Source: Chthoniobacteraceae bacterium
GTDB taxonomy: Bacteria; Verrucomicrobiota; Verrucomicrobiia; Chthoniobacterales; Chthoniobacteraceae
DNA: 64,000 nucleotides
Assembly (NCBI GenBank): GCA_028293625.1
Contig: JAQGOL010000027.1
Coordinates: forward strand, 1-64,000
Direction: 5' to 3'
This document shows positions 20,568 through 27,279 of the stretch, in pieces. Both the position numbers and the translations under genes were made by a program. Position 1 is the first letter of the stretch. Each line of letters begins with the position of its first letter. The notes under the pieces are model-generated. The model had not been told where the DNA came from. It ran no database searches and worked only from the letters and a program-made list of their open reading frames with translations.

Positions 20568-23500
20568 CTAGCGGTTGAAAAGAAACGCCGGGGTATTGAT
20601 GAGGGCCCACGTAAGGTCCTGGGTGCCGGTAAGTCGTTTATTGGCGAGCTGCCCTTTGCTTTGCTGCGCGTCGATTCGAAGCTGGACAAGCTTGGCGTCG
20701 AACCTGATGGGGGTCTCGGCGGTTACAATCGCGGCGCGCCGTTGAGTAATGCCCGGGTCTATCGGCAAAGGCAGCGCGCTTTTATCCAGGGCCAAACGCC
20801 GTTTGCGAAGTTCAGGATCGTTCTCGTTCCAATAGGCGGCAATGGCTGCGGTCTGCTCCGGAGTGCGGAGCTGCGGGGCGACTTTAAATGCCTCCGCAAC
20901 CGGCTCAGGAAGTCCGATGTTCAGCGGCGTGGCGGATGTGGTTGCCCAGATTCGGAATTTCGCGATGGAAAATCCCTCGGGACGCGGCTGGTTGAGCTCA
21001 AAGCGAAGACGCACGCCTTTTTCTGAATCGCCAATGGGTTTGGCTAAAGAAAACGCTGCGTAATGCGGAATGCCGAACTGGTTGCTAAGCGCCCAGCCGT
21101 TGTTCCCGTCGCCTTTTTTTCCGTCGATGGCTTTCTTCACTTCAAAACTTGCTTGGCTAAAGTCGGCGATCGCATCGGCAAAAGCCACGTCAGCGACGCC
21201 CGCGTCGCCGCCAGCGGCGCTTACTTTTAGCCCGATCTCACCGAGCACAAAGTTCCCATCGCTAAAGCGGCCGGGTCCGTTTGCGGCTTCATCCGCACTG
21301 GGAAGAACCTCCAGGAGAAATCCGGTAATGCCGGCCACTTTGGTATCGAACTTAATAACGTAGTCCGTGGTGCTTGGACGCGCCCCGCCAGCTTTGATCA
21401 CTCCGTTAGGTAGCTTTTGCAGGTCAATGCCGCCCGAGGCACGGAACTCCGCCGGATCAAGCTGCCGCCAGCCGGTCCATGTGCGCGCGGCGGGCAAAGT
21501 TGCTTCAAAGAGAGCCTGAGATTTGGCAAGTTCGGCCGCTTCATAATCCTTGATGGCTTTCGCGGCGGCTTCGCCCGTGGCGACTCGTTTGGCTTCCGCT
21601 TCAACGAGTTTCGGCGCGATCTCAGCTTCGTATCTGCCAAGTTCGTTCTTGGCGGCGTCGATCGCGGCCAGGCGATCGGCTTCCGCTTTGGCAATGGCGG
21701 GGGCTTGCTCCTGCTCCTTGGCTTCCCATGTCGCCAGGAGCGAAGAATTGTCCGCATCCATCACTCCCCACGAGTCGAGCACTTTGACAATCTCCGTCTC
21801 GGTGGCGGGCCGGTTAAGCACGCGAAGAAAAAGTTCGTTCACGAGCTTCTTGTCGTCGGGTTGATCGGCGACAAGTTTGGCCAGCGCGTTCTGCGGATCG
21901 CCAATCGCGTCGGCCACGGCGGGGCCGCTTAAAAGCGCCATGATGCTGCCGAGCCGGATTTCACTGCTGCGTTCGCATTCACACGCGCTTTCACGAGGAG
22001 GACGTCCAAGGCTGGAGAGAAAACCGCTTGGCAGATCAATGGCGGAATCGGGCAGTTGCGATGCCCTCATTCCAGCCACCATTCCCGGAAAATGCGGGAC
22101 GGAACCGGTGACCTTCAATACGGCATCGTAAAGTGACTCGGCGGGAAGCCGTCTGGCTGTGGCGTGTGAAAAGTTCGTCTTATCATCCTCATTCCAGCGA
22201 TTGCTATCCAATGTAAGCTGATAGGTCCGCGACTTCGCTATCAAACGCATGACATGCCGCACATCGAATCCGTGTCCGACGAACTCCTGCGTTAGATAGG
22301 CGAGCAGCTCCGGGTTGGTTGCCGGATTGCCCGCGCGAATATCGTCAAGCGGCTCGATGATTCCGACTCCGAGCAAATAGCCCCAGATGCGGTTGACATA
22401 GCTCATCGCGAAGTAGCGGTTGTCAGCCGAAGTCATCCACGCGGCGAGTTGTTCGCGCCGTGTCGGGTTCTCTTTGCCAACCTCGGTGGGAGCAGTAAAT
22501 GGAAACTCCGGGGCGGCAATCTTGTTGGTGCGCAAATGGGTAACCTCGCCGGTTGGCAGGTCGCGCACAATCTCCCACAGCGGCCGGTTTTTCTCCACGG
22601 CAGTCCCTTTGATCTCCTGCTTGCCGCTGGCCGGATCGCCGTCGAGCTGGACCTGGGCGAAGAAGGCGGCCATGTGGTAATAGTTATCCTGCGTCCACCG
22701 TTCAAAGGGATGATCGTGGCACTTGTTGCAGTTAAACCGGGTGGCCAGAAAAAGATGGGTGGTGTTCTCCATCGTCTCAGTTGGATCGCGCAGGATTTTG
22801 AAGTAGGAGGCCGCGGGGTTCTCCTTGTTCGAGCCGGTCGCCGTGAGGATCTTGCGCACGAACTGATCGTAAGGCGTGTTGAGTTCAAGTTCCTTGCGAA
22901 TCCATTCCCTGAACGAGCGTGCGCCTTCGCCGCCGAGGAACTTGGAATTGACCTGAAGCATGTCGGCCCATTTGTTGGCCCAATGCTCCACGTAATCGGG
23001 GCTGCCCACGAGCTTATCAATGAGTTCCTCGCGTTTCACGCGTTGCTCGCGAGGGTCCGCTGTAAACGCGCGCACCTCATCCGCGCTCGGCGGCAGGCCA
23101 ATCAAATCGAGTTGCACACGGCGAATGAAGTCCGCGTCGTTGCAAACCTCGGATGGCGCTATCCGCATCCGTTTCCATTTGGCGGCAACCAGCTCATCGA
23201 TGCGGTTGAAGGCGGGCGGTTCCTGCCATTCAAAACCGGTCCGGTCTCCCATGACAGTGAGCGTGGTTGCGGCATAAGCTCCTTCGAATCGGGCCAGCAC
23301 AGGGGATTCGCCGCGCCGCAAAGTTTTAATCAAGCCTCCGCCATCGGTAGTTGAAACATCGCTGTTGCCGCTTTCAATAAAAGCTTCGGCCGTCACATCG
23401 CGGGTCTCGCCGTTGGTATAGGTCGCAACCGCGCGCATCTGCTGGCGTCCGCCGAGCTGCTGAACAACCGGATCGCGCGGGAAAAGTTCAATTTTGGCCA

Positions 23501-24242
23501 CGCGCGGCGCCTCCAGATTGAGCTGCGCGCCTTCACTGATCCATGCCCTCAGAATTTCGTAATATTTCTCACCAAGCTTCGTCCGCTGGCCGCCTTCATG
23601 CGGGACGCCGGCCGTCGCTTTTAACAACATCAGGCTTTCATCCGGCTCGGCCACATTGAGCCGGCGCGCCGCGAGATCGTCCTTGAGCGAACGCACATCA
23701 AAGATCGGATCGTATCCGCGCAGAGATAGCTTGAAGCCGAACTTGCCATCCTTGGCGCCGTGGCAGGTGCCGGCGTTGCAGCCGAGCTTGGTCATCACCG
23801 GATTGACGTCACGGATAAAATCGACCGCCTTGCTTTCCGTGAAACCAGCGATGGCAATTGGCACCGTGGCCGTCTGTCCGGCGATGGTTATTTTAAGAGC
23901 GCCCTCGCCGTTTTTGCGCGGCTGCACCTGGCCAAATGGGGAAGCGTGGACAAGGCCATCGACCGATTCGATTTTTGCCAGGCGGGTGACATCGATCGAG
24001 TCGCCGCCCGCGAGCCGGGCCGTGATGAGAAGCTGGGCGTAATCGTGTTTGCCATGCAGCTTTAGTTCAGCCGGCAATACTTCAAGCCCGAGAATGGCAA
24101 CGTCTTTTGGAAGGGCTTCGGTGACATCGGCAGCGGCAACGGGCGCCATGGTGACGGCGTTGGCCAGGAGTTGTGGCGCCGTCAGCGCTGCCAGTGTGAC
24201 GAACAAGGTGGCGATTCCCGCGTGTTTGATCTGGAAACTCAT
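20568..24242 (-). CDS. DUF1549/DUF1553 haem-binding-type protein with Ig-like domain
   Basis: Codes for 1,224 residues with an N-terminal signal sequence (HAGIATLFVTLAALTAPQLLANA). A cytochrome-like motif CNAGTCH (spacing CX4CH) comes first, then an Ig-like segment (KIELFPRDPVVQQLGGRQ ... TYTNGETRDVT). DUF1549 follows, with FNCNKCHDHPFERWTQDNYY (CXXCH). Then come DUF1553 (NRIWGYLLGVGIIEPLDDIR, DVRHVMRLIAKSRTYQLT) and a coiled-coil/galactose-binding-like tail. Proteins of this type are periplasmic and of unproven function; a redox or polysaccharide role is often suggested. The start overlaps the upstream gene's stop as ATGA, so the two are translationally coupled. Confidence 0.9.
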   Translation of the reverse strand: MSFQIKHAGIATLFVTLAALTAPQLLANAVTMAPVAAADVTEALPKDVAILGLEVLPAELKLHGKHDYAQLLITARLAGGDSIDVTRLAKIESVDGLVHASPFGQVQPRKNGEGALKITIAGQTATVPIAIAGFTESKAVDFIRDVNPVMTKLGCNAGTCHGAKDGKFGFKLSLRGYDPIFDVRSLKDDLAARRLNVAEPDESLMLLKATAGVPHEGGQRTKLGEKYYEILRAWISEGAQLNLEAPRVAKIELFPRDPVVQQLGGRQQMRAVATYTNGETRDVTAEAFIESGNSDVSTTDGGGLIKTLRRGESPVLARFEGAYAATTLTVMGDRTGFEWQEPPAFNRIDELVAAKWKRMRIAPSEVCNDADFIRRVQLDLIGLPPSADEVRAFTADPREQRVKREELIDKLVGSPDYVEHWANKWADMLQVNSKFLGGEGARSFREWIRKELELNTPYDQFVRKILTATGSNKENPAASYFKILRDPTETMENTTHLFLATRFNCNKCHDHPFERWTQDNYYHMAAFFAQVQLDGDPASGKQEIKGTAVEKNRPLWEIVRDLPTGEVTHLRTNKIAAPEFPFTAPTEVGKENPTRREQLAAWMTSADNRYFAMSYVNRIWGYLLGVGIIEPLDDIRAGNPATNPELLAYLTQEFVGHGFDVRHVMRLIAKSRTYQLTLDSNRWNEDDKTNFSHATARRLPAESLYDAVLKVTGSVPHFPGMVAGMRASQLPDSAIDLPSGFLSSLGRPPRESACECERSSEIRLGSIMALLSGPAVADAIGDPQNALAKLVADQPDDKKLVNELFLRVLNRPATETEIVKVLDSWGVMDADNSSLLATWEAKEQEQAPAIAKAEADRLAAIDAAKNELGRYEAEIAPKLVEAEAKRVATGEAAAKAIKDYEAAELAKSQALFEATLPAARTWTGWRQLDPAEFRASGGIDLQKLPNGVIKAGGARPSTTDYVIKFDTKVAGITGFLLEVLPSADEAANGPGRFSDGNFVLGEIGLKVSAAGGDAGVADVAFADAIADFSQASFEVKKAIDGKKGDGNNGWALSNQFGIPHYAAFSLAKPIGDSEKGVRLRFELNQPRPEGFSIAKFRIWATTSATPLNIGLPEPVAEAFKVAPQLRTPEQTAAIAAYWNENDPELRKRRLALDKSALPLPIDPGITQRRAAIVTAETPIRFDAKLVQLRIDAQQSKGQLANKRLTGTQDLTWALINTPAFLFNR

Positions 24243-25762
24243 GGGGTAGGGAGGGATTCTGCGAGGCCGGGCGTGCCAATGGGCACGGGGATGAATTCTT
24301 TTACGATCGTGCCGCTCACGATATCGATCAGCCGCACTTTGCCGTCTTCGCCCGATGCGGCCAGCGTCTTGCCATCGGCACTAAAGGCGAGTGCGTAGAT
24401 TCCGGAATCGAAAGGAATGGAATGAAGAAGTTGGACTCCGGCGTTAAGATACTTCTCCAACTCCACGCTGTCGTTGCCAGTCAGCGCTTTCACATCGCGG
24501 GTAAGCAGCTTCTCGATTTCCGGCGGCAGCTTGTCGTCGTAATCGGCTGTGCAGATATTGATGTGGCCTTTTCCATCCAGGCTGCTGCCGGCTGCCATCC
24601 GGGTCCCGTCCGGACTGTAGCCGACGCTGTAGATACGGCCTTCCATTGCCGGGAACTGCCGGATGTGGGTGGCGTCATCGCCAATCTTCCGGGCTGTGGT
24701 ACGGAAAACACGATACGCCTGCGGCACGCCATCCGCGCCGCCGATGAGGATCTCATCGCGTTTGGGGTGGCGCGCCACGGCGTGGATGCCGCCCCTCAAC
24801 GCGCCGGGCGTGATGGAGGTGATATTGTCGACGAACCGTTGCGAGGCAAATTCGGTCAGCTTGGCACTCATATCGCGGCTGACTGAAATGACGTGGTCGC
24901 CTTTGAAGGAAAAAACCGTGTCGAGCACCCAATCGCTATGGGTCGAAAGTTGGAGCACCTGCTGGCCGGTCGCCGCGTCGATTGCGCGCACCGTTTTATC
25001 CGAACAACCGAATGCCACCGTCTTGCTGTCAGGCGACCAGCTCACGCCATAGACCGTGTCGAATGTCACCGGCACCGACATCGCCAATTTGCGTTTGGCC
25101 ACGTCCCAGATCTGGACTTCGCCCATCCGCGCTGGTTGCCCGCCGGCGGCCGCCAGCCACTTGCCATCGGGTGAAAATCGCGCGGACTCGATGCGCTGGG
25201 AAAGGCCGACCAGCCGGCCGGCAAGTCCTGAGCCATCGGTCTTGTGAAGGAGCACCTCCTGAAAACCGGTCACGGCCAGGAGCTGGCCATCCGGTGAAAA
25301 ATCGAGCGACGTGACAGTCGCGGGCCGTGTGTAAACGGGCGGATGTTCATTATCAAAACGTTGCCTGGCATTGGCCGGGGTATCGTCCGTTGCGCCCTCG
25401 ACAATCCAGCGCCGGATCAGCTGAATGTCCGCTGATGGAAGAGGCGGCTTTTTTTTCGGCATTTCCGGCTCGCCATTGGCCGGCGTGATCTGACTCACGA
25501 GGAGGCTATGGTCGGGATCCGTGGCGATGATCGCTTTTTCGCCTTTGATCGCGCTCTCGCCACCCTCGACGAGCTTTTTAAAATCGGTCATGACATAACC
25601 GCCCTGCGCCTTCGCGGGCTGATGGCATCCCTGGCACTGGGCCTGAAACAGAGGCCGGATTTCCTTATAATAGCTAACCGGCTTTATTTGGGGCTCATCA
25701 GCGCGAGCCAGGGCTGTCAAAGCGCAGGCGCTTGCGAGGATGAGATTGGGGGGGACACGCAT
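24239..25762 (-). CDS. Planctomycete-type c-cytochrome plus WD40 propeller protein
   Basis: Codes for 507 residues. After a signal peptide the haem motif CQGCH (residues 43-47) sits in the planctomycete cytochrome C context IRPLFQAQCQGCHQPAKAQG, ending in ELMPKKK-like and IQLIRRWIVEGA helices. The rest is a WD40-type propeller: TSLDFSPDGQLLAVTGFQ, ARFSPDGKWLAAAGG, VSWSPDSKTVAFGCSDKTV, VGYSPDGTRMAAGSS, LAFSADGKTLAASGEDG. It is predicted to be a periplasmic electron carrier or scaffold that works with the two downstream proteins. It is the first gene of the operon. Confidence 0.9.
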   Translation of the reverse strand: MRVPPNLILASACALTALARADEPQIKPVSYYKEIRPLFQAQCQGCHQPAKAQGGYVMTDFKKLVEGGESAIKGEKAIIATDPDHSLLVSQITPANGEPEMPKKKPPLPSADIQLIRRWIVEGATDDTPANARQRFDNEHPPVYTRPATVTSLDFSPDGQLLAVTGFQEVLLHKTDGSGLAGRLVGLSQRIESARFSPDGKWLAAAGGQPARMGEVQIWDVAKRKLAMSVPVTFDTVYGVSWSPDSKTVAFGCSDKTVRAIDAATGQQVLQLSTHSDWVLDTVFSFKGDHVISVSRDMSAKLTEFASQRFVDNITSITPGALRGGIHAVARHPKRDEILIGGADGVPQAYRVFRTTARKIGDDATHIRQFPAMEGRIYSVGYSPDGTRMAAGSSLDGKGHINICTADYDDKLPPEIEKLLTRDVKALTGNDSVELEKYLNAGVQLLHSIPFDSGIYALAFSADGKTLAASGEDGKVRLIDIVSGTIVKEFIPVPIGTPGLAESLPTP

Positions 25763-25887: not shown

Positions 25888-27279
25888 TTAATCGAGCGAG
25901 GGGAACTGGATCCGCGCGATTTTCTCGGCCATATCGTGCCGCGCGGCGAACGCGATCTCGATGGTCGCAACCCGGCTCTGACGGGCGTAAAAGGTGGTCA
26001 CGGGCCCGACTGCGCGTCCGTCGATAAAAGCGCAAAGCGGGCGTTTGTCGCCGCCGACCGAGCGAAGCACCACGGTTGCTTCCGAAGCGAGCAGCGCGCT
26101 TTTCCATCCCGGGGGAGTCATGACGTTGGAACCGACCAGGATCCAGCCGGGCGTATCGGCAAGCAACGGGGCGACGCCCATCGAGCGCGCATAAGCGGTG
26201 GAGCCGCCCGCGGTGCAGACTAAAGCGCCGTCGGCGACCAGCTTTCTGATCCGGATCTGGTCGTTGACGGAGACTTCAATCCACGCCGACTGGCTCGAGC
26301 TTCTTTCTATCCACGCATCATTAAAGGCGAGCGCATTCTGGCGAATCCCATCCGCGGTTTCCACTTCCACATACAGCATTGGCATCTGCCGTACGATGAG
26401 CTCAAGCTTGGGCAAATCATGCGCGAGGAGCGCTTCGGGTTCGTTGAGCAAAAATCCGAGATGGCCCTGGTTGACGCCCAGAAAGGGAACCCTGCGCCGC
26501 CAATGTTTGCGAATGGCATGAAGCATTGTCCCGTCGCCGCCGAGCACCAGGATGCAGGTGGGATTGTCCGCGTCCTCCCAATGGCTGTAAGTCCTGGCCA
26601 GACTGACCGCGCGTGGATTGCGTTCATCGGCTACGATTAAAAGTTGCGGATGCTCCGTCTTCCAGCGCGCTCGCCGAGCCGGAATACGCCCCCGATAGAG
26701 GCCGTAGCGCTCGATGTAAGCCGCAACGCCTTCGGTGACGAGATCGGTATAGGGAGTCCGTTTAAAGATCTTTTCCCGAATCTCGGCGCTCGAACCTGAA
26801 CTACACTGGCCAAGTTCAATCAAGGTGTGATTGGGTGGCAGGTCGGCCGTGTTAACCTTGTAACCGTGCCGGGTCACGACACAGAAGTTAAGGCTGGTCC
26901 ACATCTCGGTGCCGCGCTCCCAATCCTGGGCAATGACCGATTCACCGTCGCAGTTTCCCTCGCTTGGATCGCAGCCAAGCACGTGCCACAAATCGCCCAG
27001 GTGGCCGTAGCGTGCTTCAAGCTGATCGTTTGTCGTAAAGCTCGCGAGTTCCAAATCGGAGAGATCGACTTCGACTTTTGGCAGTCCCTTGAATGCGGTA
27101 TCCGTCAGCGCCGCCCGATGCCACGGGTCAACGTCGTTGCTGGTCAGGATGTCAGGACGCAGCCCGCACGGGAGCACGATTATCTTGTCAAAATGGGGGA
27201 TCAGCGCCTCCGCGACGAGCCGGTGATGAGTGCTGGGCGGATTAAAACTTCCACCATAAATCGCGATTTTGGGACGCAT
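25888..27279 (-). CDS. Predicted NadD-NadK fusion: nicotinate-mononucleotide adenylyltransferase plus NAD kinase
   Basis: Codes for 463 residues. Residues 1-200 are a nucleotidyltransferase of the NadD type: IAIYGGSFNPPSTHHRLVAE gives the GGSFxP...HH nucleotide-binding motif, and SSGSSAEIREKI the C-terminal SSTxIR-like motif. Residues 210-463 are an NAD kinase: ILVLGGDGTMLHAIRKH (GGDGT at 247-251), FLGVNQGHLGFLL, ADGALVCTAGGSTAYARSMG and NVMTPP. The protein should therefore make the NAD dinucleotide and phosphorylate NAD to NADP. No stop or frameshift interrupts the join. NadD and NadK are normally separate, so the fusion is notable. The gene is divergent from infA. Confidence 0.85.
   Translation of the reverse strand: MRPKIAIYGGSFNPPSTHHRLVAEALIPHFDKIIVLPCGLRPDILTSNDVDPWHRAALTDTAFKGLPKVEVDLSDLELASFTTNDQLEARYGHLGDLWHVLGCDPSEGNCDGESVIAQDWERGTEMWTSLNFCVVTRHGYKVNTADLPPNHTLIELGQCSSGSSAEIREKIFKRTPYTDLVTEGVAAYIERYGLYRGRIPARRARWKTEHPQLLIVADERNPRAVSLARTYSHWEDADNPTCILVLGGDGTMLHAIRKHWRRRVPFLGVNQGHLGFLLNEPEALLAHDLPKLELIVRQMPMLYVEVETADGIRQNALAFNDAWIERSSSQSAWIEVSVNDQIRIRKLVADGALVCTAGGSTAYARSMGVAPLLADTPGWILVGSNVMTPPGWKSALLASEATVVLRSVGGDKRPLCAFIDGRAVGPVTTFYARQSRVATIEIAFAARHDMAEKIARIQFPSLD

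Follow-up and report, generated by a model that had tools for sequence, protein, structure and literature searches.

A single polypeptide that joins a NadD-type (NaMN adenylyltransferase) domain to an NAD kinase domain combines known enzymes in a new domain architecture. As judged from genome sequences, no NadD and no NAD kinase other than this fusion is recognisable in a clade of Verrucomicrobiales, and the interest of the architecture derives from this clade. Two essential, normally separate enzymes have apparently been replaced there by one fused protein. The copy described here is encoded in a 64,000-nucleotide stretch of DNA from a Chthoniobacteraceae bacterium (hereafter, the window). 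In our preferred reading, which we consider probable, the protein carries out two non-consecutive NAD(P) steps as a fused enzyme; it is the sole copy in one clade and, in the window, an extra copy whose NadD half appears partly worn.

Domains and active-site motifs of the fusion protein

The features of the fusion gene are summarized in Table 1. GC contents at the three codon positions (0.63/0.46/0.69) follow a coding-type pattern, and an open frame as long as this one occurred in none of 1000 base shuffles. The genes that adjoin the fusion (window positions 20568-25762) encode PSCyt1/WD40 and DUF1549-DUF1553 proteins, which are typical of Planctomycetota and Verrucomicrobiota.

The window protein is a divergent member of both the NadD and NAD kinase families, and both halves score below the equivalog cut-offs. 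The NCBIfam NadD model TIGR00482 matched residues 7-195 over the full model length with 61.1 bits (curated cut-off, 112.45 bits), and the NAD kinase model NF003406 matched residues 224-459 with 143 bits (cut-off, 211). A copy from a genome that has only the fusion gave 65.9 bits with TIGR00482, also over the full model length and below the cut-off. In Pfam, the protein passed NAD_kinase (PF01513; 38 vs 25.5 bits) and fell narrowly under the cut-off of CTP_transf_like (19.7 vs 21).

AlphaFold2 modelled the whole chain confidently (pLDDT 87, pTM 0.89) and the NadD half by itself with a pLDDT of 90. In structure comparisons, the top rows for the NadD half were all NadD/NMNAT, the closest being B. 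anthracis NadD (Z 20.5, rmsd 2.4, 179 aligned). For the kinase half, the best structural neighbour was P. aeruginosa NAD kinase (Z 26.7, rmsd 2.8, 253 aligned). The linker between the two domains is short. The original prediction had described a complete NadD and a complete NAD kinase on one chain. Both domains and their folds were indeed present, but the NadD half of the window copy is altered, because it departs at otherwise near-invariant sites (G16S, P40L, K44I and G109N).

Table 1. Positions of the fusion gene, its domains and its motifs in the window
Feature	Position	Strand	Basis
NadD-NAD kinase fusion ORF, 463 aa	25888..27279	minus	ATG to TAA, domain matches, family conservation
NadD-type (NaMN adenylyltransferase) domain, residues 4-197	26689..27270	minus	NCBIfam and model fold
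NAD kinase domain, residues 205-461	25897..26667	minus	NCBIfam and model fold
ATP-binding motif, residues 9-19, GGSFNPPSTHH	27223..27255	minus	family alignment
Substrate loop, residues 37-44, PCGLRPDI	27148..27171	minus	family PCGPRPDK; aligned to E. coli PNNVPPHR
NAD kinase GGDG motif, residues 247-250	26530..26541	minus	invariant in family alignment
NAD kinase GSTAY motif, residues 359-363	26191..26205	minus	all alignment rows but one

The ATP-binding motif reads GGSFNPPGxHH in the family, whereas the canonical motif is GG[ST]FDPxHxGH. The first His of T/HxGH is replaced by Gly in the family (GxHH) and by Ser in the window copy (SxHH). The second His (His19) is invariant across the family and is present in the window copy, as is Asp104, the equivalent of E. 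coli D109. In the substrate loop, E. coli H45 and R46 (PPHR) align with D43 and K44 of the family (RPDK). E. coli NadD needs His19, Arg46 and Asp109 (H19A, 0.62%; D109A, 0.038%; R46A, the most affected; PMC1249556). Lys44 is present in all 39 copies from fusion-only genomes. It is Gln in one congener and in one copy from a genome that lacks only the separate kinase, both genomes having a separate nadD, and it is Ile in the window copy. Because the conserved Lys44, which aligns with E. coli Arg46, is lost to Ile, NadD activity of the window copy is doubtful. Its kinase half looks intact; among the aligned copies, the only variant of the GSTAY motif is GSASY in the Sumerlaeota copy. Since the first His/Thr of HxGH is absent and D43 replaces the pyridine-stacking His, the NadD half may take NaMN, NMN or another substrate.

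We counted departures at 58 N-half and 96 C-half sites that are invariant in the fusion-only genomes. The window copy departs at 6 of the 58 N-half sites, and a congener that has Lys44 departs at only 3. In Myxococcota copies, departures were found at 23-24 of 58 N-half sites vs 10-11 of 96 C-half sites, and a separate nadD is present in these genomes. These counts point to decay of the NadD half where a separate nadD covers for it. The window copy, which is far from the Myxococcota state, may be heading in the same direction.

Distribution of the fusion and of the separate genes

A scan of GTDB genomes detected 47 relatives of the fusion in several phyla, mostly full length and about 44-68% identical. 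The family of ~460-aa fusions is found in Verrucomicrobiota, Acidobacteriota, Planctomycetota, Myxococcota, Sumerlaeota and Pseudomonadota (the phylum survey used a strict E-value, and few candidates were scored per genome), and residues in both halves are strongly conserved across it. The domain search and database survey that had been proposed for this protein thus showed the architecture in 47 loci of other genomes. Because it recurs in dozens of independent genomes, a frameshift or an assembly artefact was ruled out.

The window's genome (6.83 Mb, 96% complete) contains a canonical separate nadD (contig C9, 195 aa; TIGR00482 157 bits, above the cut-off) and a canonical separate NAD kinase (contig C11, 308 aa). 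Therefore, the fusion is not the sole source in this genome; separate complete genes for both enzymes are what the original prediction had named as its refutation. The sole-source reading survives for the Verrucomicrobiales clade. Two other adenylyltransferase chains were observed in the window's genome. One joins an RfaE2-type heptose-phosphate adenylyltransferase to PurN (contig C37, L007:805-1890; TIGR02199 172 bits and TIGR00639 208 bits), and similar chains occur in fusion-only genomes (L066-L068). In the other (contig C39, L008:895-1974), a CoaD-like adenylyltransferase ends a 359-aa chain. Pfam matched nothing in the first ~200 residues of this chain.

The genomes with the fusion fall into three classes. 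In class A (10 genomes, including the window's), both separate genes are present; two congeners and MAGs of Akkermansiaceae, Acidobacteriota and Planctomycetota belong here. Class B consists of seven genomes (G038, G059, G060, G062, G065, G087 and G088) with a separate nadD and no separate NAD kinase. In class C, neither separate gene was found in 21 genomes tested with both PF01513 and TIGR00482; in 22 further fusion genomes, the kinase was tested by PF01513 and both genes by the family profile. With the family profile, only the best candidates of each genome were scored; with PF01513, TIGR00482 and PF01467, every candidate was. Thus, the genomes offer a natural series, from both separate genes kept, through loss of the kinase, to loss of both. 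The reverse pattern, in which the separate kinase is kept and the separate nadD is lost, was absent from all fusion genomes classified. Therefore, the kinase half looks like the function retained throughout the family, as far as gene content can tell.

We sampled 114 genomes of Verrucomicrobiales, the order of Prosthecobacter. None of the 32 genomes with a full-length fusion had another match among the candidates scored with the family profile, and nearly all genomes without a full-length fusion carry separate genes. Sister genera differ sharply: all three genomes of g12 have the fusion without a separate kinase, and all three genomes of g21 have a separate kinase without the fusion. In the gene tree, class C forms one supported clade plus one Sumerlaeota MAG. 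Therefore, the fusion-only state counts as about two events.

No conserved operon around the fusion was found across the family loci compared. Only in the Prosthecobacter-like subclade is a gene for a metallo-beta-lactamase-fold protein constantly located directly downstream (15 loci; for example, L052:7387-8256). One record titled Akkermansia muciniphila (L023) contains a Prosthecobacter-type fusion and neighbourhood, and its title is probably wrong. The fusion is split in genome G178, where contig C393 (L078), possibly a contaminant, carries a separate NAD kinase that looks alphaproteobacterial.

Two fusion-only genomes are single contigs (G138, 8,220,857 bp; G144, 7,957,748 bp). Therefore, the absence of the separate genes from them is unlikely to reflect missing sequence. 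In G138, the fusion is the only PF01513 match; a weak second match in G144 is a phosphofructokinase by inspection. Candidates for a hidden NAD kinase in fusion-only genomes were rejected, because the weak PF01513 matches inspected were phosphofructokinase or diacylglycerol-kinase-like. Likewise, the PF01467 matches inspected for a hidden NMN adenylyltransferase were CoaD, RfaE2-PurN and RibF. It is possible that a NadD of another fold, which these models do not recognise, serves the fusion-only genomes. NadE was found in nearly all class C genomes tested, with only weak matches in two MAGs (G070 and G090), and the G138 enzyme is glutamine-dependent by its nitrilase-like part. NadC was found in 23 of 23 genomes tested. 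The NadC match in G138 is in two pieces in different frames (contig C1, 5566093-5566601), which may reflect a frameshift or a sequencing error.

Because no separate nadD or NAD kinase was found in the fusion-only Verrucomicrobiales clade, we infer from the genomes that both halves must work there. Moreover, the retained NadC and NadE imply that NaMN is made and NaAD is needed. With no NadD candidate besides the fusion, its NadD half would have to make NaAD. This site would then have to function in vivo although the first His/Thr of HxGH is missing, which makes it a testable exception to the textbook motif. This distribution also matters for annotation: pipelines that expect nadD and nadK as separate genes could report both as absent, or assign only one function to the fusion.

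Proposed role of the fused enzyme

We propose that the N-terminal half adenylylates NaMN to NaAD, that a separate NadE amidates NaAD to NAD, and that the C-terminal half phosphorylates NAD to NADP. One fusion protein would have displaced both separate genes in the Verrucomicrobiales clade, and several other lineages would have lost only the separate NAD kinase and kept the separate nadD. In Myxococcota, the NadD half probably decayed after such a kinase-only loss, the separate nadD being retained. In the window's genome, the fusion would be surplus to the separate genes, with an apparently intact kinase half and a NadD half that is probably weakened or inactive.

According to PMC3376133, NAD synthetase amidates deamido-NAD. 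Because NadE acts between the two halves, the deamido route does not run straight from one fused step to the other, and only with NMN as the substrate would direct channelling be likely. The benefit of the fusion may instead be fixed stoichiometry and, more speculatively, control of the NadD half by NADP(H) feedback. Judging by structure titles, NadD crystals with bound NADP exist. Therefore, feedback of the kinase product on the NadD half is a reasonable, if speculative, idea. A more specific version of this proposal holds that the fusion with the reorganised site (GxHH, D-K) is the only NaAD and NADP source of the clade and coordinates the two pools through NADP feedback or a complex with NadE. 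We put this version forward tentatively and regard it as doubtful.

Where both separate genes are present, the NadD half might instead be a non-catalytic sensor that controls the kinase half on binding NaAD, NADP or NMN. The four substitutions in the window copy, the canonical nadD in the same genome, the NADP-bound NadD crystals and the retention, rather than deletion, of the decayed NadD half in Myxococcota are consistent with this idea. However, the window copy retains the fold, His19 and Asp104, and its N half is not clearly faster-evolving than its C half (64-68% vs 70-71% identity to congeners). We consider a sensor unlikely, slightly more so than coordination of the pools.

The original prediction suggested that the product of NAD synthesis is channelled straight into NADP. 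For this, the NadD half would have to form NAD from NMN in one step, and the kinase half would have to phosphorylate this NAD without its release. Two domains on one chain with a short linker would suit such a transfer, and D43 in place of the pyridine-stacking His could mean a changed substrate preference. However, the fusion-only genomes retain NadC and NadE, and NadE needs NaAD, which must be amidated before the kinase can act. As the only NadD candidate, the fusion must at least make NaAD, which is two steps from NADP. Channelling is therefore disfavoured, and we hold it to be quite improbable. Least probable is another product, such as a phosphorylated deamido or other dinucleotide outside the ordinary NAD(P) supply: the active site unlike canonical NadD and the coexistence of the fusion with canonical genes in ten genomes would fit it, but no other source of NaAD or NADP, both of which are essential, is recognisable in the fusion-only genomes. 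Thus, the two-step fused enzyme is the reading that we prefer.

Comparison with known NAD enzymes and fusions

The NadD-NadK pair was not known to be well described. In agreement with this, our literature search found no description of the pair in the sources covered, most subscription journals and preprints being outside the coverage. NadR and NadM-Nudix are fusions that contain an NMN adenylyltransferase; their adenylyltransferase families and partners differ from those of the NadD-NAD kinase fusion.

Among longer chains, the two-domain NadD (PRK07152 / NF005519; 361-position model) resembles the fusion in its N-terminal NadD. Its second domain, which we take to be of the HD/YqeK type, is not an NAD kinase. 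The bifunctional NADP phosphatase/NAD kinase (NF010678) has NAD kinase as its C-terminal half, like the fusion. Its N-terminal partner is a phosphatase, whereas that of the fusion is NadD.

Compared with single enzymes, the kinase half shares the fold (Z 26.7), GGDG and DG...GSTAY with NAD kinase (PF01513/PF20143; closest model NF003406/PRK04761). Unlike that enzyme, the fusion has a NadD partner, FND for LNE and a score of 143 vs 211 bits. With bacterial NadD (TIGR00482; B. subtilis, B. anthracis and E. coli), the fusion shares the fold (Z about 20), the length, the GG.F.P....H motif with the second His, GxD and S..xIR. Unlike bacterial NadD, it has GxHH for HxGH, a D-K loop (D-I in the window) where NadD has H-R, extra residues inserted behind GxD, an NAD kinase partner and a score (61 bits) below the cut-off.
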